From Candidatus Rifleibacteriota bacterium (GTDB lineage Bacteria > Muiribacteriota > Ozemobacteria > Ozemobacterales > Ozemobacteraceae): a stretch of 33,603 nt of DNA. This document shows, one piece after another, positions 405 to 27,199 of the stretch (position 1 is the stretch's first letter; the number at the start of each line of letters is the position of its first letter). The stretch covers positions 1 through 33,603 of the forward strand of contig JAAYVD010000007.1 in the NCBI GenBank assembly GCA_012517355.1. Direction: 5' to 3'. The notes under the pieces are model-generated. The model searched no databases and had not been told where the DNA came from. It saw only the letters and a program-made list of their open reading frames with translations. Position numbers and translations under genes: made by a program.

Positions 405-1295
405 ATGAAGAAGATCGCCCTGTTGTCCGTGGTTCTGCTCGTGCTGGCCGGCGCGGTTGCCGCCGGGGCCGCCCCCATCCATGCTGCCGTCAAGGCCGAC
501 AACCTGGCCAAGGTGACCGCCATCCTCGACAAGGATCCCGCCCAGATCAGCGTCAAGACAACGAAGGAAGGGGAAACCCCCCTGCACGTCGCGGTGGGCG
601 AGGGCCATGCCACGATGACCGCCTTCCTGCTCACCCGCAAGGCCGACGTCAACGCCCGCGACAACGAGGGGACCACCCCGCTGCTGTTGGCCACCGGCAA
701 TGACGACACCGAACTGGCCACCCTGCTGTTGCGCAAAGGGGCCGACGTGAAACTGCGCGACAACGACGGGGCCGCCGCCCTCGAACTGGCCGCCGCCGTG
801 GGCAGCAAGGACCTGGTCAACCTCTTCCTGGCCCGGGGGGCCGACCCGCGCGGCAAGGACAAGACCGGCATGACCGCCCTCCATTACGCGGCTGGTGACG
901 CCGGAGAGGACGAAGAGGAAGAAGGGGCCGCCCCTGCCTCCGGCCCCGCCCCGGCCGCCGCCCAGCCGGCGGAATCCGAAGAAGAGGAAGAGGAACTTCC
1001 CCGCATCGACATCTACAAGGCTCTCATCGCCAAGGGCGCCGACGTCAACGCCAAGGACGATGACGGAGTCACCCCCCTCCACGCGGCCGCCGCCACCGGC
1101 GAACAGGAAGCCGTCGAGTATCTGCTGGTGAAGGGCGCCGACCCCAACGCCAAGGACAAGGAAGGCAAGACCCCCCTCGATTGGGCCAACGAAGCCGAGG
1201 AACCGGAGATCGCCAAGGTCCTGAAGGCGAAGATGAAGTTCGAAGCGGTCCACGGCACGCCCACAACCACCCCCGCGCGCCGCCAACCCCGCTGA
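405..1295 (+). CDS. secreted ankyrin-repeat protein
   Basis: This 296-residue protein starts with a signal peptide (Lys-Lys, then a hydrophobic core to about residue 22, with an Ala-rich cleavage region and no lipobox Cys), so it is probably exported. The remainder is ankyrin repeats with recognisable TPLH and GADVNA consensus pieces near residues 58-61, 81-84, 113-115, 157-160, 211-216 and 223-226. About residues 166-203 form an acidic, Ala/Pro-rich insert that interrupts one repeat between its helices. Ankyrin repeats bind other proteins; no partner is visible here. The start is supported by a well-placed GAGGAGGT, by the promoter and by the signal peptide. It is a single-gene unit closed by a terminator. 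The function beyond protein binding is unknown. Confidence 0.9.
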   Translation: MKKIALLSVVLLVLAGAVAAGAAPIHAAVKADNLAKVTAILDKDPAQISVKTTKEGETPLHVAVGEGHATMTAFLLTRKADVNARDNEGTTPLLLATGNDDTELATLLLRKGADVKLRDNDGAAALELAAAVGSKDLVNLFLARGADPRGKDKTGMTALHYAAGDAGEDEEEEGAAPASGPAPAAAQPAESEEEEEELPRIDIYKALIAKGADVNAKDDDGVTPLHAAAATGEQEAVEYLLVKGADPNAKDKEGKTPLDWANEAEEPEIAKVLKAKMKFEAVHGTPTTTPARRQPR

Positions 1296-1811: not shown

Positions 1812-4800
1812 ATGAACCGACATGATCTCCGGCCGGCGGGCGGTGGGGAGGCGCGGAGCCCGGAACCGGTGCCTGGCCTGGCAGACCGCCCCGCCCGGCA
1901 CGGCCTGCTCTGGGCGGTGGTGGTCCCCGCCCTGCTCAGCCTGCTCCCCTGGCTGATCCTGCGTGGAGATGCCCAGGACCAGCGTCAGACCATGGACCTG
2001 GCCCTCCAGAAGGACTGGAAGGAGGAAGCCCGGGAGCTGGCCGGGCACCTGCCGCGGCTGGTCACCCCCGCCACCTGGCTGGAGGCCCGCACCCGCCAGG
2101 TGCGGCGCACGTTCGTGCGAGGGACGGTTCCCCGTCCCGCCACGGACCCGGCGGAAAACGCACCCCATCCGGGAAGCGGAATGCCGCTGCCGGCGGGGAA
2201 CGGCGCCAGCCCCGCCCGGGAGGATGGGCGGCCGGCAGGCACCCCCACGCCACACGGGAGGCCGTCGGTTCCCCGTGCCATCGGTGACCAGGACGGCGTT
2301 CCGACCGCGCGCCGGGGGCCCTTCCTGGCGGCCGCCAGACAGGAGCTTCCCGCCGACCCCGGGGCATCCCTGCAAGCCGGTCCAACCTCGGCCCGGCCGG
2401 GCCGGCCGCCGGTGGCGGACCGGCTGCGTCAGGCCCTGGAGCGGGCGGGGATCCCGGGCCTCGAACGGCCCAGGGTCTGGGCGGTGGTCTTCCCCGAGGA
2501 TGGCAGTCGGCCGGTCCTGCAGACGGGGCCGGGGTTCGACGGCCAGTTCCGGGTCTTTTTCCAGAACCTGTTCCAGGAGATCGGGACGGCAGCCATCTCC
2601 GGCCGGTCCGAGCTGGATTCCAACCTCTGGGCCGGCAGGCTTCGCAGCACCTTCGGGGATGCGGTAGGGGCCGACCTGTTCCAGCCCGACCACCAGGGCC
2701 GCGCCTTCCACGTCATCTTCCAGCGGCGATGCGGGCTGGCCGCCTGGGACCTGCTGACCGAAGGCGGGCGGCCGGTAGCCGGCTACCTGGTCGTCCAGCC
2801 GGTGGACCGCGGCACCTGGCAGCACGGACTCCGGCTGGCCCTGGCCGCCTGGAGCCGCCGGTTCCCCGGCACCGCCCTGCGCCCGGCCTTTGTTCCGTTG
2901 GCGAAGGAGCGCGACGGGCTGGGGAGGCTCTCCCATCCCGACCTGGCGACCGGAGAGGGAGCGGACCTGGTGCGCCGGCTGCAGGCCGGGGTCGGCTACC
3001 GGCTGGCACCCCGGGGGGAATGGGTCGGAGCAGCCCGCCTGCCGGTGGCGGCCCTGCGCGACATCCAGGTGGCGGGCTCCCATTGGGGCATGGCGTTTCC
3101 GCTTCCGCCGCTGACCGGGCACCTGGCGGTCCTGGCAGGGCCGGCGCCGGCGCCCACCCCCAGCCTCCTGGAGCGGCTGGAACGCTTGCTGCGCGGGGGC
3201 CTTCTGGCCTTCTGGTGCCTGTATCTCCCCTCGCTCTGGTTCCAGGGCCGCCCCCCCGACCTTGGGGTACGGGCCCGACTCTGGCTGGTGCTTCTCGGTC
3301 TGGCGGCCACTCCGCTGGCCCTGACCGTCGGAGCGGAGTATCGCCTCGCGGCCGACCTGGAACGATCTTGGCGATCAGGCCGGGAGGCGGAGCTGCAGGC
3401 CCATCTGCGCCGCCTGGAGAACGGCAACGCCATCCAGGAGAACGGCTTCCTCCAGCTCGTCCGGGGGCAGGCCGGCCATCCCGGGGTCGGGCCCACCCTC
3501 CTGGCCGCCGCCCGCGATCCCGCCCTCGGCCAGGCCCTTCTGGACCGGATCTGGGACACCTGCGCCAGTGCGGGGATGGACCTGATGGCGGTGCACGCGG
3601 TCGGGCCCCAGGATTTCTCGCTCGGCCGTTTTCCGGAAGAAATGTCGGAGGTCGACCGACAGCAGATCGGGTATCTGCACCGGGTGTTCGCGGCGGAGTT
3701 CCTGGCCTCGGCCACGCTGGGCGTGCGCCCGGCCGCCGGCGGACAGAAGGCCACGGCCCTCGGCGCCATGGCCCGGCTGGGGATGTTCCGCCGCAACCGC
3801 AGCACCCTGGGTCCCCCCGACGGCATCTTCCGGTTCCACAGCGGGCAGCGGTTCACCAACCGGTATCACCGGCCTGTCCAGGTGAACGGCCGCACCCTGT
3901 TCTACCTGTTCATCCTCTGGAACCAGGAGACCTCCTTCGCCACCCACCTGCAGAGGGAGGTGCCGTCCGTGGCGGCCGGGGCTCCCGGAGCGGCCTTTGC
4001 CGCCCTGTATGACAACGGGCAAGGGGCCCGGCTGCTGGTCCAGGCCGGCGATCCGGGGGCCGCGGCCGGCCTTTTCGAACGCCTGCGGAACCGGACAGGC
4101 CCCTGGCAGGAGGCGAAACAGGCGGTTCGCGCCGCCCACCCGGGCCGCGGAAGGGGAGGGTCCGGTCCGGGGCGGTCGGAGCCCTTGTCGGGCCTAGAAC
4201 CGGGGTTTCCCGCCACCGACCGGGGCGGCGAGGGGGTATGGCCGGCCTTGGGGCGGTCGGCCCCCTTGCGAAGCGCGGAACAGGCGTTTCGCGCCGCCAT
4301 CCGTGGCGGCAAAGGGGCCCTTCCGGCATCGGGGCGGTCGGAGCCCGGGGCGGCGGCGGGCTACCTGACCGTGGTCCAGCCGGTGCGGGGTTTTCCGGCC
4401 TACACCCTGGCGGGTTGCCTGCCGCTGGCCGACCTCCACGAGCGGCTGGCGGGGGAGCGGCGCCGCGCCGTGCTGACCCTGGGGGGGATCCTCATCGCCC
4501 TGCTGCTGGCCGGGGCCGCCCTGTCGCACGGCATCGCCACCCCGGTTGCCCGGATGACGGCCGGTCTGCGGGCGGTGAGCTCTCACGACCTGACGGTGCG
4601 GGTGGCGGAGGACCGGGAGGACGAATTGGGCCTGGCCAGCCGGCACCTCGACCGCATGATCGCCTGGCTCCGGGAGCGTGACGTGATGAGCCGGTTCGTG
4701 GCGCCCCAGGTCCTGGAGGTGGTGGCGGCGGGAGACCTCGAGGAAGCCTGCCGGCCGGCCCGACGCGAGGTGATGCTGCTGGTGTCGGACATCCGGGGCT

Positions 4801-7800
4801 TCACCACGCTGGCCGAGTCACATCCGCCGGCCGCCGTTTTCGGCCTGATCAACCGGCACCTGCAGGAGATGACCGCCGTCATCCAGGAACAGGGCGGAGT
4901 CATCGACCGGTTCATCGGCGACGCCATCCAGGCCGTCTTCTACCCGCGTGGGGCAGACCCCGCCGGCCCGGCTCTCACCGCGGCCCGGGGCATGATGGCA
5001 GCCCACGCCCGTCTGAACGGGGAACGGCGGGAGCGAGGGGAGTTCCCCTACGAGATCGGCATCGGGCTGGAATGGGGCGAGGTGGTCACCGGCGTCCTGG
5101 GCGCCCGGCAGATGCGGCTCGATTTCACCGTCCTGGGGGAGCCGTTCAAACGGGCGGCCGACCTCGAGGCGGCATCGAAGGCGGGCCGGGCCAGCCGCAT
5201 CGTGGTTTCGGGGAAAGTGGCAGCCCTGGCCGGACCGGCCTGGTCGTTCCTTCCCCTCCCCCACCCCGACACCCCCGATGCCTGGGAACTGGACGCCCCC
5301 GGCCCCGGCGGCGCGTCCACCGGCCCGGCCCCCCAGGCCCACCGCGCCGAGGGGCCGACCGACCCGCCGTTCGTCCCCTCGAACACCGGCTCCCACGCCG
5401 GGCCCCCTGGCCCAGCGACGGCCTCCGCCGACACCGGGGACGCCCACCCCACGGCCCATCGCGAGCCGCCCAGCGGAACCATCGCCGCCAGGAACGGAGC
5501 CGCTCAGGCCCTGGGGAGAGGGAGCGAAGGCGGGCCGGGCCAGGCGCGGGTCCGGCGTCCGGCGGCGCCTTCGGCGGCGGCCCGGACCTGGGCCACGCTG
5601 GCTTTGGTGGTCGCCTGGGCCATCCCCGCCTTCCTGGTCCATTCCTCGGTCGCCACCTATGACCGCAGCCTGGCCGACCAGCGCCAGGCCACCATCCGGA
5701 AACGGTTGGACGAGGCGCGCCGCCTGGTGGAGCATTCGTTCGAAGCGAGGCGACAGGTCGAAAGCCATCTGACCCGGCAACTGTCCGCCCTGATCGGCGA
5801 GGCGGCGGGGCGCCGTGATCCAGTGCGGTTCCTGGCGGAGAGATGCGATTCCCTGCTGAGTTCCCCCACCCGGGCCATCCCGCCCCTGCGGTGGCACGTG
5901 CTGTCCTTCCTCTCGGCCGGGGAAGCAGCGGGCCGACCCGCCGAACTGGCCCCTCCCCTGGAGTTTCACGGCGGCAGCGGCCCTGATCTGCACCGCCTCG
6001 ACCTGTTCGAGCTGTTCCAGTATCTCCGGTGCGATGTCGCGGGCGTCAAGTTCGATGGCTACTACGAAATGACCGCGGAGCTGACCACCCGCCTCGGCCT
6101 TGGCTCCCTTTCCCCCGTGATCGAAACCATCGGGCGGTTCGTCGACCTGGAGCCGAAGCGTCGTCCCCTGGCGGTGTTGTGGGTGCCCATCCTCGATGAC
6201 GACCTGGAAAGGCGGTCGGCAACGGACCGCGTCCTTCAACCCCTGGCTCCTGACACCCCCCGGCGCCGCCACACCCTCCGGGGGGTCATCCTGCTGGTGG
6301 TGGCGCCCGAAGCCCTGACCGTCGATGCCGGGATGCACTGCCTGCTGAAGGACATGGGAGAGAAAGACATCCTGCTGGAGGTGACCACGGGGGAAGGGGC
6401 GGCGCAGCACACCTGGAAGCACCCGGCCCTGCCCGGAGGCACGACGGATCCGGGGAGCGACCCGATGATCCGCCCGCCCGCCGGTTTTTCCTGTCAGCAG
6501 CTCACCGTCGTGCAGGACGGGGTCTACCAGGTGTTGCTGGCCCTGCCCGAGCCGCCGGCGGCGAGGGGTGGGAACCTCCTGCGGCGGGCGGCCGGGCTCG
6601 GCATCCTGGCCTGGATGGCCGCCGGCGTCGGAATCATCTGGTTCCGGATGGCGACCGGCCGTTCGGGATGGCTGCCACTGGCCGCCCAGTTGGGCGGCAC
6701 TTTGCTGGCCATGCTGCTTCCCCCTCTGCTCATCGGCAGCCTGGCCGTGGAGTGTTCCTTCAACCAGCGACAGGCCGGGCTGCCCGAGGAGGTCGAGGGG
6801 GGGCTGCGGGAGACCTTCGCCGCCATCGACCAGACCCGGCCCCTCATCCTGGGCTGGAACATGGCCATGACCAGGCTGTTGATCGACCGTCACGATCTGC
6901 TGGCCGCCCTGGCGAAGGTAGATGCCCGGCGCGGGGAGGACCGGAAGCGGCTGGGGGACCGCATTGTGGCCTGGTTCAACCGGCGGGCGGCGGAGCGCGG
7001 TTTGTTGCTGAAGGACCCCTTGTTCGGCTCCCGTTCCCTCAAACCGGTGGGCTTCCGGTCCTCCCAGGAGGAATCCCTGACCCTCATTTTCAAGGGGTCG
7101 GCCTACCAGGGGGCCCGGGTGTTGCGTGCCCTGGACCGCGAAGACCAGAACCCGCCGGAGAATCAGCAGGGAGAAGAAATGATGTTGGGAATCGGCCTGG
7201 ACGAGGTGGACGGCCTCATGAAGTCCTCGATCAGCCCGACCGTCAGGACCTTCATGGCCCTGGCCCCCGAGGAGGTCCTGGAGTTCCGGCTTCTCGATAC
7301 CAACACCTTCCTGGCCTCCTGCCAGCTTCCCCGTCACGGCACCCCCCGCTTCGTGTTCAAGTCCAAATTCGACTCGGAGGTGCTCGATTTCCACACCGCC
7401 CGGTTGTGGAGCAGGGGGAGGGCCTCTTCCGGAGGAGGTTCGCGGGCATCGGGGGGTTGCCCCGACCCGTTCGAGGCCTCCGCTGCCGGGGGTCTCCCGA
7501 AGGGGTCCGACGGAGGCAACCGGCTCGCCCCAAGATTCTTCCTTTCCCCCATCGAACTTTCCGGATGGGCGCAACAGGATCCATACTGGATTCCCGAGAC
7601 CTATCCCGACGAGGCTTTCGAGACCTCGCTTCTGGTCCAGGGGGACATCCATGCGTTCTGGTTGTTCCCGCTGGTCCAGGAGGCGGGGCGCCAGGGGAGC
7701 CCCCAAACCGCCATCGAGGGGGAAGGGACCGCGGCCCGGTTGTGGATGGCGTATGCCGGGACCGGGATGCCCAACCGGCTCCCGGTCGGATTCGCCCCGC

Positions 7801-8747
7801 TCGGAGAACGGATCGCCGCGGAGCAGGGGGCCCAGGAGGGGCGGCGGGGGGTCCTGATCGCCTTGCTGCTGGGCACCCTCGGGCTGGCCATCCAGGTCGG
7901 AAGGCGGTTTCTGTCCCCCATCCTGAGCCTGTCGGCGGCCGCGGAGCATGTGATGCGCGAGGACTTCACGGTCCGTCTTCCCCCGGCGGGCGGGGAGTTC
8001 GGGCAGTTGGCGGAGGCGTTCAACGAGATGGTCCGGGGCGTGGCGGAGGGGCGACTGCTCAGCCGGTTCGTGTCGGAATCGGTGCGGGGCGCGGCCCGCG
8101 ACGAGGAACAGGAGCGGGCGGCCCGCGAGGGCGAGGTGGTCGAGGCGGTCATCCTGTTCGCCGGGCTGGGCCGGTTCAAGGATCTGCTCGCCTCGGTTCC
8201 GCCCGACGTGCTGGTCGTCGGCCTCAACCGGCACCTGGAGGGCATGGCCGAGGCCATCCGCGGGCAGGATGGCGAGATCGACAAGTTCATCGGCGACAAG
8301 GTGCTGGCCGTCTTCCCCGCCCGCGGCCCGGGGGGCCGGGAGGCGGCGGCGGGGCGGGCCCTACGGGCCGCCCTCGACCTGCGCCGGCGGGCCCGCGAGG
8401 CGGGGGTGTTCCCCGCCAACCCGCTGGGAGTGGGCATGGCCTTCGGGCCGGTCTTGTCAGGCATCATGGGCACCGCGTCGGTGCGGCTGGAGCTCACGGT
8501 CATCGGCGACACGGTCAACCTGGCCTCCCGCCTGGGCGACCTGGCGGGGCGGCTCGACGGGGCGGGCCGGCTCGACGGCCCGGCGGGCCTGGAAGGTGGC
8601 ATCGTGCTCGAAGCGGGCCTGGCAGGGCTGCTGCGGGGGGCTCTCCCCGCCGGGGCGGCCCTGCTTCCCCTGGCCCTGCCCCCGATCAAGGGCAAGTCCC
8701 GGTCGGTCGACGCCTTCCTGGTGCGGGAGCCCCCGGGGCAGGAATGA
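1812..8747 (+). CDS. tandem class III nucleotidyl cyclase with two membrane/sensor modules
   Basis: This 2,311-residue membrane protein contains the same module twice: TM, extracytoplasmic region, TM pair, second sensor region, TM, HAMP, cyclase. The approximate TMs are 31-50, 459-477, 488-507 and 887-907, then 1260-1280, 1593-1614, 1620-1646 and 2012-2030. HAMP regions follow at about 908-957 and 2031-2080. Cyclase 1 (about 985-1150) keeps both metal Asp residues (D993, D1037) but has Lys1113 and Asp1117 where the transition-state Asn and Arg should be, and Arg1033 for the base-binding Lys. Cyclase 2 (about 2108-2270) has Gly2118 for the first metal Asp but keeps Lys2158, Asn2236 and Arg2240, with Glu2227 for the base-selecting Asp. 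The expected product is cAMP, made at the shared interface. Low-complexity segments lie at about residues 104-199, 765-845, 1161-1256 and 1867-1908. An AGGAG precedes the ATG by 12 bp. The sensed ligand is unknown. Confidence 0.9.
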   Translation: MNRHDLRPAGGGEARSPEPVPGLADRPARHGLLWAVVVPALLSLLPWLILRGDAQDQRQTMDLALQKDWKEEARELAGHLPRLVTPATWLEARTRQVRRTFVRGTVPRPATDPAENAPHPGSGMPLPAGNGASPAREDGRPAGTPTPHGRPSVPRAIGDQDGVPTARRGPFLAAARQELPADPGASLQAGPTSARPGRPPVADRLRQALERAGIPGLERPRVWAVVFPEDGSRPVLQTGPGFDGQFRVFFQNLFQEIGTAAISGRSELDSNLWAGRLRSTFGDAVGADLFQPDHQGRAFHVIFQRRCGLAAWDLLTEGGRPVAGYLVVQPVDRGTWQHGLRLALAAWSRRFPGTALRPAFVPLAKERDGLGRLSHPDLATGEGADLVRRLQAGVGYRLAPRGEWVGAARLPVAALRDIQVAGSHWGMAFPLPPLTGHLAVLAGPAPAPTPSLLERLERLLRGGLLAFWCLYLPSLWFQGRPPDLGVRARLWLVLLGLAATPLALTVGAEYRLAADLERSWRSGREAELQAHLRRLENGNAIQENGFLQLVRGQAGHPGVGPTLLAAARDPALGQALLDRIWDTCASAGMDLMAVHAVGPQDFSLGRFPEEMSEVDRQQIGYLHRVFAAEFLASATLGVRPAAGGQKATALGAMARLGMFRRNRSTLGPPDGIFRFHSGQRFTNRYHRPVQVNGRTLFYLFILWNQETSFATHLQREVPSVAAGAPGAAFAALYDNGQGARLLVQAGDPGAAAGLFERLRNRTGPWQEAKQAVRAAHPGRGRGGSGPGRSEPLSGLEPGFPATDRGGEGVWPALGRSAPLRSAEQAFRAAIRGGKGALPASGRSEPGAAAGYLTVVQPVRGFPAYTLAGCLPLADLHERLAGERRRAVLTLGGILIALLLAGAALSHGIATPVARMTAGLRAVSSHDLTVRVAEDREDELGLASRHLDRMIAWLRERDVMSRFVAPQVLEVVAAGDLEEACRPARREVMLLVSDIRGFTTLAESHPPAAVFGLINRHLQEMTAVIQEQGGVIDRFIGDAIQAVFYPRGADPAGPALTAARGMMAAHARLNGERRERGEFPYEIGIGLEWGEVVTGVLGARQMRLDFTVLGEPFKRAADLEAASKAGRASRIVVSGKVAALAGPAWSFLPLPHPDTPDAWELDAPGPGGASTGPAPQAHRAEGPTDPPFVPSNTGSHAGPPGPATASADTGDAHPTAHREPPSGTIAARNGAAQALGRGSEGGPGQARVRRPAAPSAAARTWATLALVVAWAIPAFLVHSSVATYDRSLADQRQATIRKRLDEARRLVEHSFEARRQVESHLTRQLSALIGEAAGRRDPVRFLAERCDSLLSSPTRAIPPLRWHVLSFLSAGEAAGRPAELAPPLEFHGGSGPDLHRLDLFELFQYLRCDVAGVKFDGYYEMTAELTTRLGLGSLSPVIETIGRFVDLEPKRRPLAVLWVPILDDDLERRSATDRVLQPLAPDTPRRRHTLRGVILLVVAPEALTVDAGMHCLLKDMGEKDILLEVTTGEGAAQHTWKHPALPGGTTDPGSDPMIRPPAGFSCQQLTVVQDGVYQVLLALPEPPAARGGNLLRRAAGLGILAWMAAGVGIIWFRMATGRSGWLPLAAQLGGTLLAMLLPPLLIGSLAVECSFNQRQAGLPEEVEGGLRETFAAIDQTRPLILGWNMAMTRLLIDRHDLLAALAKVDARRGEDRKRLGDRIVAWFNRRAAERGLLLKDPLFGSRSLKPVGFRSSQEESLTLIFKGSAYQGARVLRALDREDQNPPENQQGEEMMLGIGLDEVDGLMKSSISPTVRTFMALAPEEVLEFRLLDTNTFLASCQLPRHGTPRFVFKSKFDSEVLDFHTARLWSRGRASSGGGSRASGGCPDPFEASAAGGLPKGSDGGNRLAPRFFLSPIELSGWAQQDPYWIPETYPDEAFETSLLVQGDIHAFWLFPLVQEAGRQGSPQTAIEGEGTAARLWMAYAGTGMPNRLPVGFAPLGERIAAEQGAQEGRRGVLIALLLGTLGLAIQVGRRFLSPILSLSAAAEHVMREDFTVRLPPAGGEFGQLAEAFNEMVRGVAEGRLLSRFVSESVRGAARDEEQERAAREGEVVEAVILFAGLGRFKDLLASVPPDVLVVGLNRHLEGMAEAIRGQDGEIDKFIGDKVLAVFPARGPGGREAAAGRALRAALDLRRRAREAGVFPANPLGVGMAFGPVLSGIMGTASVRLELTVIGDTVNLASRLGDLAGRLDGAGRLDGPAGLEGGIVLEAGLAGLLRGALPAGAALLPLALPPIKGKSRSVDAFLVREPPGQE
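2121..2408 (+). other. in-frame low-complexity insertion in the cyclase N-terminal sensor
   Basis: Residues about 104-199 are Pro/Ala/Gly/Arg-rich with no predicted fold. The homologous gene at 31859 lacks this stretch: its WVERAAQRL region continues almost directly into the next conserved part, whereas here about 90 residues intervene. A GGTTCCCCGT word recurs at 2126 and 2267, 141 bp (47 codons) apart. Confidence 0.7.
4105..4348 (+). repeat. 81-bp minisatellite, three units inside the cyclase coding sequence
   Basis: The word GGGGCGGTCGG occurs at 4169, 4250 and 4331, exactly 81 bp (27 codons) apart. Each unit also encodes a PGFPATDRGGEG-like or AFRAAIRGGKG-like peptide and ends in GRSEP or GRSAP. 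The array sits between the second sensor region and the last TM of module 1. It is the same family as the intergenic array at 1507-1750, read on the opposite strand. Confidence 0.85.
5290..5580 (+). other. Pro/Ala-rich linker joining the two cyclase modules
   Basis: About 95 codons (residues 1161-1256) of Pro, Ala, Gly, Thr and Arg join the end of cyclase 1 to TM5. This is the junction of the internal duplication. No stop codon or internal start with a strong ribosome site was found, so one polypeptide is the simplest reading. Confidence 0.6.
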
Positions 8748-9184: not shown

Positions 9185-10411
9185 TTACGGACGCGGGCCC
9201 CCGAACACGCGGCGGAGGCGGCCGGCGGCCTCCTCGACGTTCTCGCGGTGGCCGAACGCGCTGAACCGCAGGTAGCCCTCGCCGGCGGGGCCGAAGCCGG
9301 CGCCCGGGGTGGCCACCACATGGGCCTTGTGGAGCAGCTCGTCGAAGGCTTCCCAGGAGGACTTGCCGGGGATCCGCACCCACAGGTAGGGGGCGTTGTC
9401 GCCGCCGCGGCAGGGGAACCCGACGGTGGTGAGCGCCTCGCGGATGAGGCGGGCGTTGCCCAGGTAGTGGTCGACCTGCCGGCGCGTGGCTTCCAGCCCG
9501 GCGGGGCTCAGTGCCGCCAGGCCGGCCGCCTGGGAGAAGACCGAGGCCCCGTTGAAGACGGTGGTGACGATGCGGTTGAAATCGTCGTGCAGGCGGCTGC
9601 CGTCCTCGTAGCGGAGGGCCTTCGGCACGACGGTCCAGCCGAGCCGGACCCCGGTGAACCCGGCGGGTTTCGAGAAGGAACTGGTCTCGATGGCCACCTC
9701 GCCGGCGCCGTCGATCTCGTAGATGGTGCGTGGCAGCTGGGGGTCGCGGATGTAGGCGCTGTAGGCGGCGTCGAAGACCAGCAGGGCGCGTTTCGCCCGC
9801 ACGGCGGTCACCAGCTGCTGCAGTTGGGCGCGGGTGGCGACCGCGCCGGTCGGGTTGTTGGGGGAACAGAAGTAGACGATGCCCCGTTCGGGAATGACGG
9901 TCAGGTCGGGGAAGAACCCGTTCCCCTCGTCGCAGGGAAGGTAGGTGATGCCCGCGAACTGGCCGCGTTCCTCGATCAGCCCGCCGGTCATGCCGGTCAG
10001 CACCGCGCTGTCGACGTAGGCGGGGTAGGACGGGTCCTGCACAGCCAGGCGGGCGGCCGGTCCGAACATCAGCTGCAGGCGACCGATATCGCACTTGCAG
10101 CCGTCCGAGACGAACACCTCGTCGGCGGCGACCTTCCCCCCGTAGAGAACCTCGGCGATCCGCTGGCGCAGGGCGGTCAGGCCCTGTTCGTCGCCGTAGC
10201 CGGCATACCCTTCGCGCGTCCCCATGGCCGCCGCCCGCTCCCGGACGGCGGTGACGATGGGCTCCACCAGCGGTTCGGTGGTATCGCCGATGCCCAGGCT
10301 GATCACCTTCGCTTCCGGATGGGCGGCGGCGAATTCGCGGCGACGGCGCCCGATCTCGGAAAACAGGTAGCGTGACGTGAGTCGGGCCAGGTGGGGGTTG
10401 CGGATGACCAT
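9185..10411 (-). CDS. dapL: LL-diaminopimelate aminotransferase
   Basis: A 408-residue fold-type I PLP aminotransferase, the usual length for DapL. It converts tetrahydrodipicolinate directly to LL-diaminopimelate with glutamate as amino donor, bypassing the succinylase and acetylase routes to lysine and peptidoglycan. Visible signatures are SPNNPTG (183-189) and the PLP lysine K248 in SSFSK, followed by PAGFTGVRLGW. The N-terminal ISLGIGDTTEP and YAGYGDEQG blocks are typical of DapL. The start at 10411 has AAGGAG eight bases upstream; an in-frame extension to 10936 is low-complexity and unsupported. It lies downstream of thrA-thrB-thrC on the same strand, 284 bp after thrC, with its own possible promoter. 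Confidence 0.93.
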   Translation of the reverse strand: MVIRNPHLARLTSRYLFSEIGRRRREFAAAHPEAKVISLGIGDTTEPLVEPIVTAVRERAAAMGTREGYAGYGDEQGLTALRQRIAEVLYGGKVAADEVFVSDGCKCDIGRLQLMFGPAARLAVQDPSYPAYVDSAVLTGMTGGLIEERGQFAGITYLPCDEGNGFFPDLTVIPERGIVYFCSPNNPTGAVATRAQLQQLVTAVRAKRALLVFDAAYSAYIRDPQLPRTIYEIDGAGEVAIETSSFSKPAGFTGVRLGWTVVPKALRYEDGSRLHDDFNRIVTTVFNGASVFSQAAGLAALSPAGLEATRRQVDHYLGNARLIREALTTVGFPCRGGDNAPYLWVRIPGKSSWEAFDELLHKAHVVATPGAGFGPAGEGYLRFSAFGHRENVEEAAGRLRRVFGGPRP

Positions 10412-10478
10412 GGGAGAGGCTCCTTTCAGGATGGGCCGGCCCGGGTGGCCGACGGGCCGACGGGAAGATCTGGCCGGG

Positions 10479-10508
10479 ATGGTACCGCCCCTGGCGGGTT
10501 GAATGCAA
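10479..10508 (-). promoter_or_regulatory. possible dapL promoter
   Basis: On the minus strand, TTGCAT (10508-10503), an 18-bp spacer and TACCAT (10484-10479), about 68 bp before the dapL start. The match is moderate and the surroundings are GC-rich. Confidence 0.4.
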
Positions 10509-10527
10509 GACGGCGAATTTCGGTATG

Positions 10528-10586
10528 TGTCCCCGGAATCCGCGGAATCCGCGGAATCCGGAATCCCCCCCCGGAATCCTGTCCCC
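10528..10586. repeat. GGAATCCGC 9-bp tandem repeat bracketed by TGTCCCC words
   Basis: GGAATCC begins at 10535, 10544 and 10553 (9-bp period) and recurs at 10560 and 10573. Direct TGTCCCC words lie at 10528 and 10580. The element occupies the gap between thrC and dapL, just upstream of the possible dapL promoter. It may be a relic of a dispersed repeat. Confidence 0.6.
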
Positions 10587-10695
10587 AAAATCCCCCCTCG
10601 TCCGATGCCTCCCAGGCCAGGGTGGGCGCAAGACCGACCCGGTCCGTCAGCGGCGCGGGTGCGGTTCACGGGGAGGATACCTTCCCGCCGTCTGG

Positions 10696-12132
10696 TCATC
10701 GCCCGGCCGGGCCCGCCAGTTCTTCCCACGGGGGCGGGGAGGAGGGATCCAGGGGGTGCTCCCGGCGGGGGCGGGCCAGCAGGTCGGCCAGGGCGGGCGG
10801 CACCGGCAGGGCGCGGCCGATCAGGGGTTCGACGATGGTCTCGAACTTGGCGGGGTGGGCGGTGGCGACCACGATCGCCGGCCGGCCCGGGAACCGGGTG
10901 CGGCGCACCCGCTCGGCCACCGCGGTGTGCGGGCACAGGATCTCGCCGGTGGCGGCGAAGACCTCGCGGATGGTCTGCCGGATCTCGTCGTCGGTCACCG
11001 AATAGGCTTGTACTTGCTGGCAGATCTTGTCATCGCCGCCGAACAGGGTCCGCACCCGCTCCCAGTTGCTGGGGTTGCCGACGTCCATGGCGTTGGCGAG
11101 GGTGGCCAGGCTGGGGCGGGGCCGGAACTCGCCGGTGGCCAGGAAGTCGGGCAGGACGCGGTTGGCGTTGACGGCCAGGACGATCTCGCCGAGCGGGGCG
11201 CCCATGGCCTTCGCCCAGAAGGCGGCGGTGACGTTCCCGACGTTGCCGGTGGGGACGACGACGAGAGGCGGTTCGCCCAGGCGGGCGGCGAAGCGGGCGG
11301 CGGCCTCGACGTAGTAGGTGACCTGCGGCAGCAGCCGGCCGAGGTTGATGCTGTTGGCCGAGGTCAGCCGCAGCCGCTGCGCCTGCCCGGGCACCGCGAA
11401 GGCGGCCTTGACGAGGCGCTGGCAGTCGTCGAAGGTGCCCGCCACCGCGTAGGCGGTGACGTTGCCACCCCAGCAGGTCAGCTGGGCGCGCTGCCGCTCG
11501 GAGACCCCGGCGGCGGGGAACAGCACCGACACCCGGGCCGTGGCCCGCCCGGCGAAGGCGGCGGCCACCGCCCCGCCGGTGTCGCCCGAGGTGGCCACCA
11601 GCACGTGCAACGGGAGCGGGGAAGCCGGTCCGGCGGCGGCGGGGGAACCGGGCCCGTGGCACGGGGCACCCCGGTCGTCTGGTCCGGCCACCCCAGATCC
11701 CGCGAAGGTCCTGGCCGCTTCCGGTCGGCCGGGATCGCCGGGCGCCAAGGTTCCCGGACCGGCCGCGCGTTCGGCGGCGTCGAGGAACTCGGCCAGGAAG
11801 CGGGCTCCGATGTCCTTGAAGGCGAGCGTGGGCCCGTGGAACAGCTCGAGCATGGCCTGCCCTTCCTCCCCGCGCCATCGCAGCGGCACGGGGAAGGTGA
11901 AGGCCGCCCGGCAGAGGGCGTCGAGATCGGGGGCGGCGGGGTCGCCGGCGAAGAAGGGGCGCAGCACGCTGGCCGCGCGGTCGGGAAATGGCAGGTCGGG
12001 CGCCAGAGCTTCTGGGGCGAGGGCGGGCAACGTCTCGGGAACGAACAACCCCCCGTCCGCGGCCATCCCGGCACGAATGGCCGCGGCGGCCCCCACCGGG
12101 ACCGCCCCTCCGCGGGTACTGTGAAACCACAT
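10696..12132 (-). CDS. thrC: threonine synthase
   Basis: A 478-residue PLP enzyme that converts O-phosphohomoserine to threonine, the last step of the pathway. The PLP lysine is K106 in HGPTLAFKDIG, and the phosphate-binding loop SGDTGG follows at about 182-187. The N-terminal block STRGG..P and the YAVAGTFDDCQ and NSINLGRLLPQ blocks are typical. Residues about 124-173 are a Gly/Pro/Ala-rich insert between the PLP-lysine helix and the LVATSGDTGG strand, a place where the family normally has only a short connection. The start at 12132 has AAGGGAG eight bases upstream; the longer frame to 12318 is rejected because it runs back into thrB. It follows thrB by 31 bp, so one transcript is likely. 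Confidence 0.93.
   Translation of the reverse strand: MWFHSTRGGAVPVGAAAAIRAGMAADGGLFVPETLPALAPEALAPDLPFPDRAASVLRPFFAGDPAAPDLDALCRAAFTFPVPLRWRGEEGQAMLELFHGPTLAFKDIGARFLAEFLDAAERAAGPGTLAPGDPGRPEAARTFAGSGVAGPDDRGAPCHGPGSPAAAGPASPLPLHVLVATSGDTGGAVAAAFAGRATARVSVLFPAAGVSERQRAQLTCWGGNVTAYAVAGTFDDCQRLVKAAFAVPGQAQRLRLTSANSINLGRLLPQVTYYVEAAARFAARLGEPPLVVVPTGNVGNVTAAFWAKAMGAPLGEIVLAVNANRVLPDFLATGEFRPRPSLATLANAMDVGNPSNWERVRTLFGGDDKICQQVQAYSVTDDEIRQTIREVFAATGEILCPHTAVAERVRRTRFPGRPAIVVATAHPAKFETIVEPLIGRALPVPPALADLLARPRREHPLDPSSPPPWEELAGPAGR
11614..11769 (-). other. in-frame low-complexity insertion in thrC
   Basis: About 50 codons rich in Gly, Pro, Ala and Arg separate two strongly conserved threonine synthase blocks. 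The DNA includes the near-palindromic GTGGCACGGGGCAC. The frame is kept and both flanks are intact, so the enzyme is probably active with a surface loop here. Confidence 0.7.
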
Positions 12133-12163
12133 GTTTCCGTCTCCCTTTCTTCCGCCCCGCCGA

Positions 12164-13327
12164 CTACCCTGCCTGGGGTTTTCCCGGGCCGACGAGGTGG
12201 GCGCCCCGTGGGGAAATGGGGCCCACCCATTCGTCGCAGGGCAGAGCCTGGTCGGCGAAAACGGCGCGCACCGCGGCCCGCACCCGTTCGGCGGCCGCGT
12301 CGCCGCGGGCGAGGGCAAAGACGCTGGGGCCCGACCCCGAGATCGAGAAACCGAGCGCCCCGGCGGCGGGGGCGGCCGCTTTGGCCGTCGCGAAGCCGGG
12401 AATCAGCACCGCGCGCTGGGGCTCGATGACGACGTCCTCGAGGCTGCGGCCCAGCAGGTCATAGTCGCCGGTATGGCAGGCGGTGACGAAGCCGGCCAGG
12501 TTGGCGGTCTGGGCGATGAACCCCGCCATCGGCACCGCCGGCTTGAGGATGGCCCGGGCGGCCTTGGTGTCGACCCGCAGGTGGGGGTGGACGACCACGG
12601 CCCGCAGCTCGGGCAGCACCGGCAGCGGCAACAGGTCGGGGGGGCTGACCCGGCGGGCCAGCAGGAGGCCGCCGCAGAGGCAGGGCCCGACGTTGTCGCC
12701 GTGCGGGGCGCCGCCGGCCAGGGTCTCGCCCAGCAGCGACAGGGTGAAAAGGTCGGGCTGGGGAAGGGGCCGCTCGAGCAGCGCGTTGGCCGCGACGAGC
12801 GCCCCCACCGCGCTGGCCGCCGAGCCGCCCATGCCGCTGCCGAGCGGGATTCCCTTCACCACCTCGACGGCGAACCCGAACGACAGGCCCAGCTTCTCGC
12901 GCAGGCCGATCAGCACCACTCCGGCGGTGTTCTTCGCCGCGTCGAGCGGAAGGGGCTCGAGCAGGCCGGGCGTCGCGGGCCGGCCGGAAACCGGGCCACC
13001 GGGCAGCGGGGGAGCCGCCTCGCCCCCGGGGGTTGGCCTCCCGGCCGCCCCGGGCAGTCCGGCCGGGAGGCCATCGCCGGTTCCGCCGCCAGATTCCCGC
13101 CCCACCGCCCCCACCGGCGCGGGAAAGGTTCCCCGGGACGCTGCGCCAGCGAGGGCCGGCGACCAGGTGGAAGAGACGATGCGGACCGTCGGTTCCTCGA
13201 TCCGGCGCACGGTGACCGTGTCGCCGAACCCGGAGATGGCGAATCCGAGCAGATCGAAGCCCACCGCCACGTTGGCGACGGTGGCGGGGGCGAAGGCGGT
13301 GGCGACCGCCGGGCGGGCCCCGGTCAT
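12164..13327 (-). CDS. thrB: homoserine kinase
   Basis: A 387-residue GHMP-family kinase that phosphorylates homoserine with ATP to make the ThrC substrate. It begins with the family block APATVANVAVGFDLLGFA. The ATP-binding motif GIPLGSGMGGSAAS is present at about 160-172, and the C-terminal GFSISGSGPSVFAL is typical. The family is usually about 300-320 residues; the excess is a Gly/Pro/Ala-rich insert at about 54-123. The start has GGGGAGG a few bases upstream. It lies 19 bp after thrA and 31 bp before thrC, so translation is probably coupled in an operon. No catalytic block is missing. Confidence 0.93.
   Translation of the reverse strand: MTGARPAVATAFAPATVANVAVGFDLLGFAISGFGDTVTVRRIEEPTVRIVSSTWSPALAGAASRGTFPAPVGAVGRESGGGTGDGLPAGLPGAAGRPTPGGEAAPPLPGGPVSGRPATPGLLEPLPLDAAKNTAGVVLIGLREKLGLSFGFAVEVVKGIPLGSGMGGSAASAVGALVAANALLERPLPQPDLFTLSLLGETLAGGAPHGDNVGPCLCGGLLLARRVSPPDLLPLPVLPELRAVVVHPHLRVDTKAARAILKPAVPMAGFIAQTANLAGFVTACHTGDYDLLGRSLEDVVIEPQRAVLIPGFATAKAAAPAAGALGFSISGSGPSVFALARGDAAAERVRAAVRAVFADQALPCDEWVGPISPRGAHLVGPGKPQAG
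12959..13168 (-). other. in-frame insertion with a palindrome in thrB
   Basis: About 70 codons of low-complexity sequence lie in the N-terminal domain of homoserine kinase. Inside, 13035-13046 and 13061-13072 form a perfect 12-bp inverted repeat (GGCCTCCCGGCC and its complement) around a 14-base loop. This resembles the in-frame palindromic elements known from Rickettsia, although the sequence is unrelated as far as I can tell. Confidence 0.65.
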
Positions 13328-13346
13328 GCGGCACCTCCCCGGGGGC

Positions 13347-15890
13347 TCATTGTCCGCCCCCGATGATGGAACACAGGCGCAGCAGGTCGGCGAACACCCC
13401 CGCCGCGGTGACCTCCGGCCCGGCCCCGGGCCCCATCACCACGAGGGGATGCGCGTCGTAGCGGCGGGTGCGGAAGGAGACGACGTTGTCACCGCCGGTG
13501 GCCAGGGCGAACAGCGAATCGCGCGGCACGCCGACCAGCTCGACCCGCGTTCCCTCGCGGGGGTCGACCCGGCCAAGGTAGCGTGGCTCGCGGCCGCCTT
13601 CGCGACAGGGGGCCAGCAGCCCGGCCAGGTGGTCCTCGAGCCGGTCGAGCGCAGCCAGGAAGTCCGGCAGCGGCAGGGCCCGCAACTCTTCGGGAACCAG
13701 GTTCAGCACCGGCACCTCGGCCAGTTCGAGGGGCAGCCCCGCCTCGCGGGCCAGGATGACCACCTTGCGGGCGACGTCCGTGCCCGACAGGTCGTCGCGC
13801 GGGTCGGGCTCGGTGAACCCCTTGGCCATTGCCTCGCGCAGCGCCTCGGCAAACCCCGCCCCGGCGGACAGGCGGCTGAACAGGAACGACAGGGTTCCCG
13901 AGAACATGCCCTCGGCCCGGATCAGCGTGTCGCCGGTCTGCACCAGGTCGTGCAGGGTGCCGATGACGGGCAGGCCGGCGCAGACCGTGGTCTCGTAGAG
14001 GAAGTGGCGGCGGCAGCGGCGGGCCGTCTCGCGGATCCGGCGGTAGTCGGCCAGCGGAGCGGAGCCGGCCCGCTTGTTGGGGGTGATGACGTGGAAGCCG
14101 CGGGTGAAGAGGTCGGGGTAGCGGGCGGCCAGGTCGGTCGAGGGGGTGCAGTCGATGACCGCCGCGTGCGGGATGGAATCGGTGCGGACGTGGGCGAGGA
14201 ACGCCTCGAGGTCGGGCGGCCGGGTCGACGCCGCCAGGCTGTCACGCCAGCGGGCCGGGTCGAGGCCGCGTTCGTCCAGCAGCATCTTCTTGCGGGTCAG
14301 GATGCCGCGCACCCGCAGGTCGATGGACAGTTCCTCGCGCAGGCGGCCCACCTCGCGCCCGATCTGGTCGAGGAGGGCGCCGCCGACATTGCCGGTGCCG
14401 ACGATGCCGAGGCTGATGGCCTGCCGCGACAGGTAGAACCCCGCGTGCGCGGCGCGCAGCCCGCGCACCGCGTCGGCGGCGTCGATGACCACGCTGATGT
14501 TGCGCTCCGACGACCCCTGGGCGATGGCCCGGATGTTCACCCCGGCCGCCCCCAGCGCCCCGAAGAAGCGCGCCGAGACGCCGGTGGTGCCGGCCATTCC
14601 TTCCCCGACCGCCGCCAGGATGGCGCAGGGACCGGTCACCTCGACGCGCTGCACCTTCCCGTGCAGCATCTCGGCGGCGAAGGCCTCCTCGGCGGCGGCC
14701 TTGGCGGCCTGGCCCTGGGCGGCGGGCACGGCGAAGCAGATCGAGTGCTCGCTCGAGGCCTGCGAGATCATGATCACCGAGATGCCGTGCGCGTGCAGGG
14801 CGTCGAACAGGCGGCCGGCGATGCCGGGAACCCCCATCATGCCGGTCCCTTCCATGTTGACCAGGGAGATCGGCTCGATGGTGGCGAAGCCCTTCACGGG
14901 CCGCTCGGCGTCGAGGGCGGTGCGGTATTTCACGACGCTGCCGGGGGCCTCCGGGCGGAAGGTGTTGCGGATCAGGATCGGCACCGACTTGGCGATGGCC
15001 GGCCCCATGGTGCCGGGGTGCAGCACCTTGGCGCCGAAATAGGCCAGCTCGATGGCTTCCCGGTAGGTCAGCTCGGGCACCAGCACCGCCTCGGGCACCT
15101 TGTTCGGGTCGGCGCTCATCACGCCGTCGACGTCGGTCCAGATGACGACCTGCTCCGCGTCGAGGAGGTGGCCGAAGATGGCCGCCGAGTAGTCGGACCC
15201 GTTGCGACCCAGGATGGTGGCCACCCCGGCCGGGGTCTGGGCGACGAAGCCGGTGCAGACCACGACCCTCGGGGTGCCGGGGGGAAGGGGCGGCAGCGCG
15301 GCGCGGAACCGGTCGAGGTTGGCGCGGCTGACTTCCCACACGACGTTGACGGTGGGCTGGGCATGCTCGACCACGAGCAGGCGCCGGGCATCAATGCGGT
15401 CGACCGGCAGCCCGGCGCCACGCAGGACGCCGGCCATGATCATGGACGACCAGACCTCCCCCACCCCGGCCACGTAGTCGCGGGCCCGCTCCGAGCACTC
15501 GCGCAGCAGTCCGACCCCGCGCAGGATCTCGCGCAGGTCGCCCAGGTCGGCCTCGATCGCGGCGCGCACGTCCTTTCCCGCCTCGCCCGGCAACAGGCGG
15601 TCGATCACGGCGAGGTGGTCGACGCGCAGTTTTCCGAGGTGCTCTTCGAGGGCGGGGTCACGCTGCTCGGCCAGGGATGCCAGCTTCAGCAGGCGGTCGG
15701 TGACCCCGCTCATGGCGGAAACGACGACGGCCAGCGACCGGCCGCCCGCCAGTTCCTTCTTCACCAGGTCGGCCACGTGGGCGATCCGGTCGGCGGTGCC
15801 CAACGAGGTACCGCCGAACTTGTGGACGATCCAGCCCGGGCCGCCGTCGGGCGACCCCGGGGACGCTGCGTTCAAGGTGCTTCCAGCCAT
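13347..15890 (-). CDS. thrA: bifunctional aspartokinase / homoserine dehydrogenase
   Basis: This 847-residue ThrA-type fusion catalyses the first and third steps of the aspartate pathway. The aspartokinase domain starts with KFGGTSLG (K24) and carries NGSDYSA and WTDVDGVMSADP. Two ACT-type regulatory regions follow, with GTGMMGVPGIAGRLF and NIRAIAQGSSERNISVV, so feedback by threonine is expected. The homoserine dehydrogenase part begins near residue 490 with the NAD(P) motif LGIVGTGNVGG and includes TPNKRAG and GTLSFLFSRL. The chosen ATG at 15890 has AGGAG eight bases upstream; a GTG at 15908 is less well placed. It heads thrA-thrB-thrC. Unlike thrB and thrC it shows no low-complexity insertion beyond a short N-terminal leader. 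Confidence 0.95.
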   Translation of the reverse strand: MAGSTLNAASPGSPDGGPGWIVHKFGGTSLGTADRIAHVADLVKKELAGGRSLAVVVSAMSGVTDRLLKLASLAEQRDPALEEHLGKLRVDHLAVIDRLLPGEAGKDVRAAIEADLGDLREILRGVGLLRECSERARDYVAGVGEVWSSMIMAGVLRGAGLPVDRIDARRLLVVEHAQPTVNVVWEVSRANLDRFRAALPPLPPGTPRVVVCTGFVAQTPAGVATILGRNGSDYSAAIFGHLLDAEQVVIWTDVDGVMSADPNKVPEAVLVPELTYREAIELAYFGAKVLHPGTMGPAIAKSVPILIRNTFRPEAPGSVVKYRTALDAERPVKGFATIEPISLVNMEGTGMMGVPGIAGRLFDALHAHGISVIMISQASSEHSICFAVPAAQGQAAKAAAEEAFAAEMLHGKVQRVEVTGPCAILAAVGEGMAGTTGVSARFFGALGAAGVNIRAIAQGSSERNISVVIDAADAVRGLRAAHAGFYLSRQAISLGIVGTGNVGGALLDQIGREVGRLREELSIDLRVRGILTRKKMLLDERGLDPARWRDSLAASTRPPDLEAFLAHVRTDSIPHAAVIDCTPSTDLAARYPDLFTRGFHVITPNKRAGSAPLADYRRIRETARRCRRHFLYETTVCAGLPVIGTLHDLVQTGDTLIRAEGMFSGTLSFLFSRLSAGAGFAEALREAMAKGFTEPDPRDDLSGTDVARKVVILAREAGLPLELAEVPVLNLVPEELRALPLPDFLAALDRLEDHLAGLLAPCREGGREPRYLGRVDPREGTRVELVGVPRDSLFALATGGDNVVSFRTRRYDAHPLVVMGPGAGPEVTAAGVFADLLRLCSIIGGGQ

Positions 15891-15944
15891 CGTTTCAACT
15901 CCTGCCACGCGGTGGCGTGCTCATGGTCGGAGGACCGGGAAGCC

Positions 15945-23975: not shown

Positions 23976-25339
<1,364 letters not shown>

Positions 25340-25343
<4 letters not shown>

Positions 25344-26935
25344 GCCTTCCTCCATTTCGTTTCGGGCCTCTCGAGAGCGGGCAGCAGAATTTCGAACCGC
25401 GCCCCCTTGCCCGGCTGACTCTCCACCTGGATGGCCCCGCCGTGGGAGGTGACGATGCCATGCACCACCGACAGCCCGAGGCCGGTTCCCATGCCGACCT
25501 CCTTCGTGGTGAAGAACGGGGTGAAGATCATGCCGCGAACCTCTTCGTCCATACCCACCCCGGTGTCCTCGATGGCCAGGCGGACCATGCCACCGCGGCG
25601 GTCGGTCCGGACGGTCAACCGCCCGCCGCCGGGCATGGCCTGGATGGCATTGACGATCAGGTTGACCAGGACCTGGTTCAGCTGGGAGGGATCGCCGAAG
25701 ACGGGTGGCAGGTTGGCCCCCAGCTCACGGACGATCTCGATGCCTTCCTTGGCACACCGCGATTCCAGGAAGTACAGCCCCTCTTCGACGATGCGGTTGA
25801 AATCCGTCTCGGCCATGTGGACAGGCATCTGCCTGGAGAAGTAGAGCAGCTTCTTGATGATCTCCCGGGCATGCAGGGAAGCCCGGACGATGCGGTCCAG
25901 GTCTGAGGGCACCTGGCCGGGCAACCCCTCGGTCCGCGCGATCAGCTGGGCATAGCCGAGGATGTTGGTCAACGGCTCGTTGAGCTCGTGGGCCACGCCG
26001 GCGACCAGCTGTCCGACGGTGGCCAGGCGATCGGCATGGCGGAGCTGGCCCTGCAAGCGGACCCGCTCCTCCTGCGTCTGGCGACGCTCGACGATCAGGG
26101 CCACCTCGCGGGCGATCGAGTTGAGGAGAGCCTGTTCCTCGGCCAGGAAGGGATGCTGCCCGAAATCCTGCCGTTCCTCGGTGTAGAAGATTTCGATGCG
26201 GCCGCGATTCTTGCCCCCCACCACGACCTCGGCCTCCTGGCGGAAGGGGCCGGTCCGGAACCCGCGGCACTCGAAGGAACGGTGATCGATGACCAGCCGG
26301 GCGCAGGTGATCTCGGGAAACTGCCAGGCCTTGGGCAGCAGGTCGGCGATCTGCTGCAGGGTCTCCTCGATGGGTTGGCGGGCATCGTCGGCCACCCGCA
26401 CCAGGCCGTACAGGCAGGTCAGCTCCTTGTTGCGCTCCCGCAGGTCGGTCAGCAGGCGATGGACGGTGAAGACGGTGCCGAGCCGCTCGCCGATCTGCTC
26501 CAGCAGCCCTCCCCATCGGGATGCCACCTCGGCCACCGGCCGGGGAAAGCCCAGGAGCAGGTGCCCGAGGAGTTCCCGGCCGGCGCAGAGGGGGATGGTG
26601 AGGGTGTCCCGGGAAGGGGCCGGCTGGTGGTCGGGATTGAACAGGCGGGCCGCCATCACCTCGTAGGAGAACCCGGCGGGGTTCCCCGACAGCACGCCAT
26701 GGTGGAGGGTTTCGCCCCGGAAGAGAAGGACCTCGATGACCTCCGCCCCCATGAAGCTGCCAAGGAGGGTGAGCACTTCCCGCGCGAACTCGGACGGTCG
26801 CAGCGGCTGGTTCGACATGACGAGCATCCGATCGACCATCGCACGCAAAGCCTGCTCATCGGTCGGGGGAGAAACCCGCGACGGGCGGGGGGAGGGAGAC
26901 CTGGCCGAGGGTGACCGGACGGCTCGTGGGGACAT
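25340..26935 (-). CDS. soluble NtrB-like sensor histidine kinase
   Basis: A 531-residue cytoplasmic kinase with no TM or signal peptide. After a Ser/Pro/Arg-rich start (1-25) come two GAF-like sensor regions, about 26-160 and 165-285. The second contains PKAWQFPEITCARLVID, a pattern I associate with sensor kinases of anaerobic bacteria. The HisKA box is GVAHELNEPL (H316). The ATPase has the N-box NQVLVNLIVNAIQ, G1 DTGVGM (457-462), FFTTK and G2 GTGLGLS. It should autophosphorylate and pass phosphate to D58 of the overlapping regulator. A promoter sits so close to the ATG that the mRNA may be leaderless. The ligand is unknown. It is divergent from paralogue B of the PEP-binding protein. Confidence 0.93.
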
Positions 26936-26969: not shown

Positions 26970-27140
26970 CCGGCAGGCTCCCTCCCCGCCGCCGTGGGGA
27001 TGCCTTCCCTGGACTGGCGAGGCTGAGGGCCGGTTCTTCCCCGTCCGGGACGCCCCTCGGCCGACCGTTCATCAGGAGGTCCGCCGAATCGGGAAGGGGG
27101 ACCATCGGTCCCTGTTTGGGAACGAGAATCGTCGCGATGG

Positions 27141-27169
27141 TTCATTTTACCCCACCACCGTGGTATAAT
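27141..27169 (+). promoter_or_regulatory. sigma-70-type promoter of paralogue B
   Basis: A consensus TATAAT (27164-27169) with an extended TGG just before it, and a weak -35 box TTCATT (27141-27146) 17 bp upstream. The predicted start is near 27176, giving a leader of about 24 bases that includes GGAGGAG. The remainder of the 264-bp divergent gap (26936-27199) shows no gene. Confidence 0.7.
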
Positions 27170-27199
27170 TCCCCTTTCCAACCATGCCGGAGGAGCGAA

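Follow-up and report, generated by a model that had tools for sequence, protein, structure and literature searches.

Does any bacterium possess a cyclase built like the membrane adenylyl cyclases of mammals, with two complementary catalytic halves in a single chain? The mammalian C1/C2 enzyme is explained by duplication and fusion in early eukaryotes. We addressed this question for a reading frame at positions 1812–8747 (forward strand) of a 33,603-nt stretch of Candidatus Rifleibacteriota DNA, hereafter the window. According to a 2022 review (PMC9552081), bacterial class III adenylyl cyclases homodimerize, and fused dimeric species are unknown in bacteria. A search of the open-access literature returned no paper on these proteins or on cyclases of Riflebacteria or Ozemobacter. 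From the analyses described below, the frame very probably encodes an independently evolved, pseudoheterodimeric bacterial class III adenylyl cyclase of 2,311 aa, in which the two domains are predicted to pair within the chain and to be catalytic together.

The frame has the properties of a real gene. It runs through 2,311 codons without a stop, and its GC content by codon position (0.76/0.54/0.87) is of the coding type. Together with these features, Pfam supports a tandem cyclase, as two Guanylate_cyc and two HAMP domains were matched. The family PF00211 also exceeded its cut-off, in two stretches (67.4 bits for the 2,311-aa protein versus 21.9). A histidine kinase identity from NCBIfam was considered and rejected, the matches being weak and confined to the HAMP region. 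A sequencing frameshift, named in the first-pass annotation as a possible source of the fusion, was ruled out by a fused orthologue in Ca. Ozemobacter sibiricus (L073, a 2,151-aa frame with the same K/D replacement) and by many other fused frames; in all, 30 fused frames of 1,632–2,681 aa were found in six genomes of the phylum.

All parts of the protein are encoded on the forward strand. Half 1 starts with a membrane and sensor module (1905–4523), for which hydropathy gives the order TM segment (aa ∼32–50), ectodomain A, TM pair (aa ∼455–508), ectodomain B and TM segment (aa ∼886–904). HAMP 1 (aa ∼908–955, 4533–4676; matched by Pfam, with borders set from the sequence) and cyclase domain 1 (aa 985–1160, 4764–5291) follow. 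A Pro/Ala/Gly-rich cytoplasmic linker (aa ∼1165–1262, 5304–5597) connects to half 2, whose membrane and sensor module (5598–7901) again holds two ectodomains, with TM segments at aa 1263–1281, 1593–1611, 1623–1641 and 2012–2030. The N-terminal part of this module is homologous to half 1 (E 6.9e-9). HAMP 2 (aa 2030–2075, 7899–8036; Pfam) and cyclase domain 2 (aa 2108–2300, 8133–8711) complete the chain. Both cyclase domains were defined by Pfam, alignment and search.

Around the cyclase, a gene for an ankyrin-repeat protein (405–1295, forward strand) lies closely 5' of it. Downstream, the reverse strand carries ordinary aminotransferase, threonine synthase, GHMP (homoserine) kinase and aspartokinase-homoserine dehydrogenase genes (9185–15908), with ABC-2 transporter genes beyond them. 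Two further frames (20378–23356, reverse; 27116–30184, forward) encode an odd signaling fusion, in which a response-regulator-like region is apparently joined to a PEP-synthase-type ATP-binding domain (PPDK_N). An NtrC-type regulator (23976–25355) and a histidine kinase (25340–26935) are encoded between them.

To compare the catalytic domains, both were aligned in the same way and read at six columns: metal Asp 1, base-binding Lys, metal Asp 2, base contact, Asn and Arg. Domain 1 reads D-R-D-T-K-D. It has both metal aspartates, D993 (4788–4790) and D1037 (4920–4922), and T1106, with R1033 (4908–4910) replacing the base-binding Lys, and K1113 and D1117 (5148–5162) replacing the transition-state Asn and Arg. 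Domain 2 reads G-K-D-T-N-R. Here G2118 (8163–8165) replaces the first metal Asp, whereas the second is retained (D2162), as are the base-binding K2158 (8283–8285) and the transition-state residues N2236 and R2240 (8517–8531); the base contact is T2229 (8496–8498) rather than Asp. All of these residues except T1106, D2162 and T2229 had been named in the first-pass annotation, and the alignment finds each of them where it had been placed. A KGK motif (aa 2293–2295, 8688–8696), which we take to correspond to the Lys that, in class III cyclases, binds phosphate and comes after Asn/Arg, occurs near the C-terminus of domain 2 and has no counterpart in domain 1. The six-residue class III set for one dimer site is thus complete only when the domains are combined; neither has it alone. 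In a composite site, domain 1 would supply the metal aspartates D993 and D1037, and domain 2 would supply Lys2158, Thr2229, Asn2236, Arg2240 and the KGK lysine. This would be the single complete site for conversion of ATP to cAMP, and the second site of the interface, with G2118 and R1033/K1113/D1117, would be dead.

We then asked how widespread this arrangement is. The host genome (7.1 Mb, 96% complete) contains 87 Guanylate_cyc matches. Relatives were collected through Pfam matches and fetched regions; the whole 2,311-aa protein, used as a query against genome contigs, found none. In total, 219 cyclase domains from the phylum Riflebacteria were typed. Pairs consisted of neighboring domains of the host genome and many from seven others (G001, G002, G005, G007, G011, G019 and G022). 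They were picked by adjacency and their residues typed only afterwards, with half-types assigned from the metal Asp and Asn/Arg positions and with Lys, Thr and KGK unused. Complementary division was seen in 83 of 88 neighboring pairs (30 fused, 58 in adjacent genes): one partner has both metal aspartates and lacks the Asn/Arg pair, and the other has lost a metal Asp and has Lys, Thr/Ser, Asn and Arg. Among the 83 are 30 fused pairs, with the metal half always first, and 35 and 18 split pairs with the metal half first and second, respectively; 12 fused and 15 split clean pairs reside in the host genome. The remaining five cases comprise three triples (L051, L074 and L109), an alignment gap (L125) and an unrelated neighbor (L059). 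Triple L051 has the order metal, metal, Asn/Arg, and in L074 and L109 a canonical cyclase precedes an Asn/Arg plus metal pair.

With complementary loss repeated in 83 of 88 neighboring pairs, the complementarity is far beyond chance, and a coincidence in one protein is ruled out. The pairs are kin by descent and do not represent 83 independent events, so these statistics show long retention under selection, not many origins. The division of residues that had been proposed for one bacterial polypeptide is indeed present, but the protein is no single case: it belongs to a large paralogous family, made up mostly of adjacent gene pairs and partly of fusions.

Positions left out of the classification were informative. 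Lys was found in all 83 Asn/Arg partners and Thr in 82, with Ser in the other one; for metal partners the counts were 36/83 and 35/83. Of the Asn/Arg partners, 64/80 have the KGK motif, as do 29/33 canonical domains; among assessable metal partners the count is 5/55. Many bacterial class III enzymes have Lys and Thr at the two base-contact positions, a pair of the adenylyl cyclase type. Few changes suffice to switch the substrate of a class III cyclase, and the fused enzyme might make cGMP or another cyclic nucleotide; given Lys/Thr in 82/83 Asn/Arg partners, we consider this improbable.

Residues of the predicted dead site are far more variable, with 7–15 different residues at each position across the 83 pairs. 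The first metal position of Asn/Arg partners is occupied by G (39), S (14), A (8), H (6) and others, and the former Lys position of metal partners by K (36), R (33), Q (8) and others. At the former Arg position of metal partners, 13 different residues occur. Metal-type partners with Asn or Arg singly number 7 and 13 of 83, respectively. That dead-pocket residues vary so freely argues against one common ligand. The family-wide complementarity supports the earlier proposal of one working and one dead site, as far as residues can predict it. A contrary reading is that both domains are pseudoenzymes, serving as dimerization or nucleotide-binding modules, and that complementarity is a by-product of decay. 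Each domain alone does miss essential residues. Yet in 83 pairs from eight genomes, D/D on one side and near-invariant Lys/Thr/Asn/Arg on the other have been kept as residues of the second site drifted, and no pair outside triple L051 has lost the same half twice, which makes this reading highly improbable.

The distribution of the family was traced at the DNA level with the signature IDKxxG[DE]K of the Asn/Arg half. Of 24 genomes in the host's family, 19 carry it; in 16 genomes elsewhere in the phylum, one probable chance match was the only hit. G019, from another family, has reversed-order pairs that lack the signature. Among the closest metal-type matches in a wider genome collection, 69 loci carry a lone canonical domain, and almost all of these loci lie outside Riflebacteria. 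Two frames, L087 and L088 (786 and 771 aa), have lost both the metal and the Asn/Arg residues and appear to be true pseudocyclases. A record titled Candidatus Methylomirabilis (SulCav; L137) has a complementary pair of Riflebacteria type; the title may be a mislabel.

Phylogenetic trees place the two half-types in sister clades. The larger tree combines the phylum's domains with 85 more drawn from the wider genome collection; the comparison with eukaryotic domains was made by search. In this tree, a clade of 95 metal-type domains (SH-aLRT 86) adjoins one of 90 Asn/Arg-type domains (88). The two are joined in a larger clade (88), whose only canonical member, L007, lies next to the metal-type clade. 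A smaller tree splits the Asn/Arg type into groups of 58 and 27. Clustering of the half-types survives masking of the active-site columns. The halves have co-diversified: over 83 pairs the Mantel r was 0.74, a value reached in none of 2,000 permutations (best 0.18). For 50 of the 83 pairs, both halves pointed to the same pair as nearest relative, with ∼1 expected.

These data bear on whether domains pair within or between chains. With ∼27 pairs in one genome, more than half of them encoded by separate genes, C1–C2 pairing across chains or mixing of paralogous halves into combinatorial heterodimers is physically possible, and triples such as L051 hint at shared partners. But the strong co-evolution of cognate halves (Mantel r 0.74) and the fusion of cognate partners favor insulated pairs, and we think both possibilities unlikely; the catalytic logic would be identical either way.

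Structural modeling gives a further hint of pairing within the chain. The two cyclase domains of the window protein together span more than the 1,200 residues of one model, and a fused homologue, L117 (a 1,994-aa frame), was used in its place. The modeled part of L117 covers 1,200 residues, beginning at cyclase 1 and ending at the C-terminus; it was computed with 30 fused sequences and is 27% identical to the window protein. The model had a pLDDT of 81 and a pTM of only 0.58. In Foldseek searches its best PDB match was human AC5 (E 2.3e-16). AC9 structures gave TMq values of 0.28–0.29 with ∼336 residue equivalents, and single-domain chains gave 0.13–0.17; CyaB reached a TMt of 0.84. The roughly twofold higher TMq of AC9 suggests, from scores rather than inspected contacts, that both domains superpose at once. 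On this reading, the two cyclase domains may dock as in C1/C2. Intramolecular pairing of this type, as the first-pass annotation had envisaged, thus gains support from family-wide complementarity, co-evolution of the halves and the L117 model.

The membrane part of half 1 of the window protein was modeled with good confidence (546 residues with pLDDT ≥ 90, pTM 0.73). Its ectodomains match B. subtilis McpB/McpC models, TlpQ, PctD, Mlp24 and KinD, with only two Foldseek E-values below 1e-3. Pfam found no Cache domain in the 2,311-aa protein. Judged from the model, the membrane halves may be Cache-type sensors. The weak ectodomain matches of half 1 are a likeness to the HAMP-linked Cache sensors of chemoreceptors and histidine kinases, from which the window protein differs in having two ectodomains and four TM segments per half and a cyclase output.

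How does the protein compare with known cyclases? Like the mammalian membrane adenylyl cyclases AC5 and AC9, it has two homologous membrane-plus-cyclase halves in one chain, two metal aspartates in domain 1, and Lys, base contact, Asn, Arg and phosphate Lys in domain 2, with presumably one live and one dead site. The hexahelical TM modules and Asp base contact of eukaryotic class IIIa are absent, however; each half has instead four TM segments, two ectodomains and HAMP coupling, and the base contact is Thr2229. The ancestry is also bacterial class III, and many relatives are split gene pairs. Bacterial homodimeric cyclases (CyaB, CyaC, bPAC, OaPAC, Rv1625c) share the catalytic fold and are the nearest relatives in sequence, but have two equal sites where here incomplete halves complement each other. 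In searches, CyaB, OaPAC and bPAC were the closest solved relatives of both domains, far better than mammalian cyclases. Human soluble adenylyl cyclase (ADCY10) and the heterodimeric soluble guanylyl cyclase are likewise tandem or heterodimeric class III enzymes with one catalytic and one degenerate site, and domain 2 of the window protein could be aligned to the second of the ADCY10 domains; these enzymes differ in being soluble and eukaryotic and in having other regulatory domains. Because of the Thr base contact, the putative Cache-HAMP membrane part and its closest solved relatives, the window protein is, by sequence, a member of the bacterial class III cyclases, not of the eukaryotic family, and is predicted to work like a mammalian membrane adenylyl cyclase.

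Could the division have been acquired from a eukaryote, or passed to one? The residue division is the same, as is the order, with the metal half first in all fused members. Against this, both domains match bacterial class III cyclases with best E-values of ∼1e-14 to 1e-18 and mammalian membrane cyclases with 1e-3 to 0.05, both clades adjoin bacterial canonical domains (in a tree without eukaryotic sequences), the membrane halves are of putative Cache-HAMP rather than hexahelical type, and a second, independent pair (L129, below) suggests that the division can arise again. We judge such a transfer very improbable. The closer sequence kinship to bacterial cyclases agrees with the independent evolution that had been suggested at the outset, and the textbook C1/C2 arrangement appears to have evolved convergently in bacteria on their own.

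The family retains traces of its history. Parts preceding the cyclase matched a model built from metal halves in 74/89 metal and 68/84 Asn/Arg halves. These parts are homologous in both half-types, which makes duplication of whole genes probable. Among 28 canonical cyclases, L068 alone matched the same model (E 6.8e-13). At this locus (3137–6169), one frame of 1,011 aa encodes four TM segments as in the halves, together with a complete active site, and its cyclase branches just outside the metal and Asn/Arg clades; it is a plausible living representative of the homodimeric progenitor type. A complementary pair in adjacent genes of another family (L129, at 2795 and 4974, in G022) falls elsewhere in the tree, and the division seems, from sequence, to have arisen again there. 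The division as such had one or a few origins and most likely predates fusion. The course of events would begin with whole-gene duplication of a homodimeric, L068-like 4-TM Cache-HAMP cyclase; labor would then have been divided between neighboring genes, followed by radiation of cognate pairs and fusion in some lineages.

Each cyclase domain is preceded by a HAMP and a four-TM module of its own, and the latter bears two Cache-looking ectodomains. Ligands or envelope signals at the two sensor halves may shift the HAMP-linked coils relative to each other, setting the geometry of the single composite site, so that cAMP output would depend on how the two differing sensor halves set the C1/C2 interface. 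With different sensors on either side of one site, inputs could be combined in a manner not open to a homodimer. The host genome has 24 matches to cNMP-binding domains, making receptors for the cyclase product plausible.

On a broader view, for and against which we find the case evenly balanced, the phylum evolved the C1/C2 division itself, at least twice, and a cell contains dozens of insulated pairs, each sensing several extracellular ligands through its two different halves (coincidence detection), with progenitor, split and fused stages persisting. Homodimer-type, split-pair and fused stages coexist in bacteria, with dozens of natural replicates. This opens to direct test in what order events took place, what is gained from unlike sensor halves and what becomes of the dead site. 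It also makes the family a natural collection of split cyclases that may be insulated from one another.
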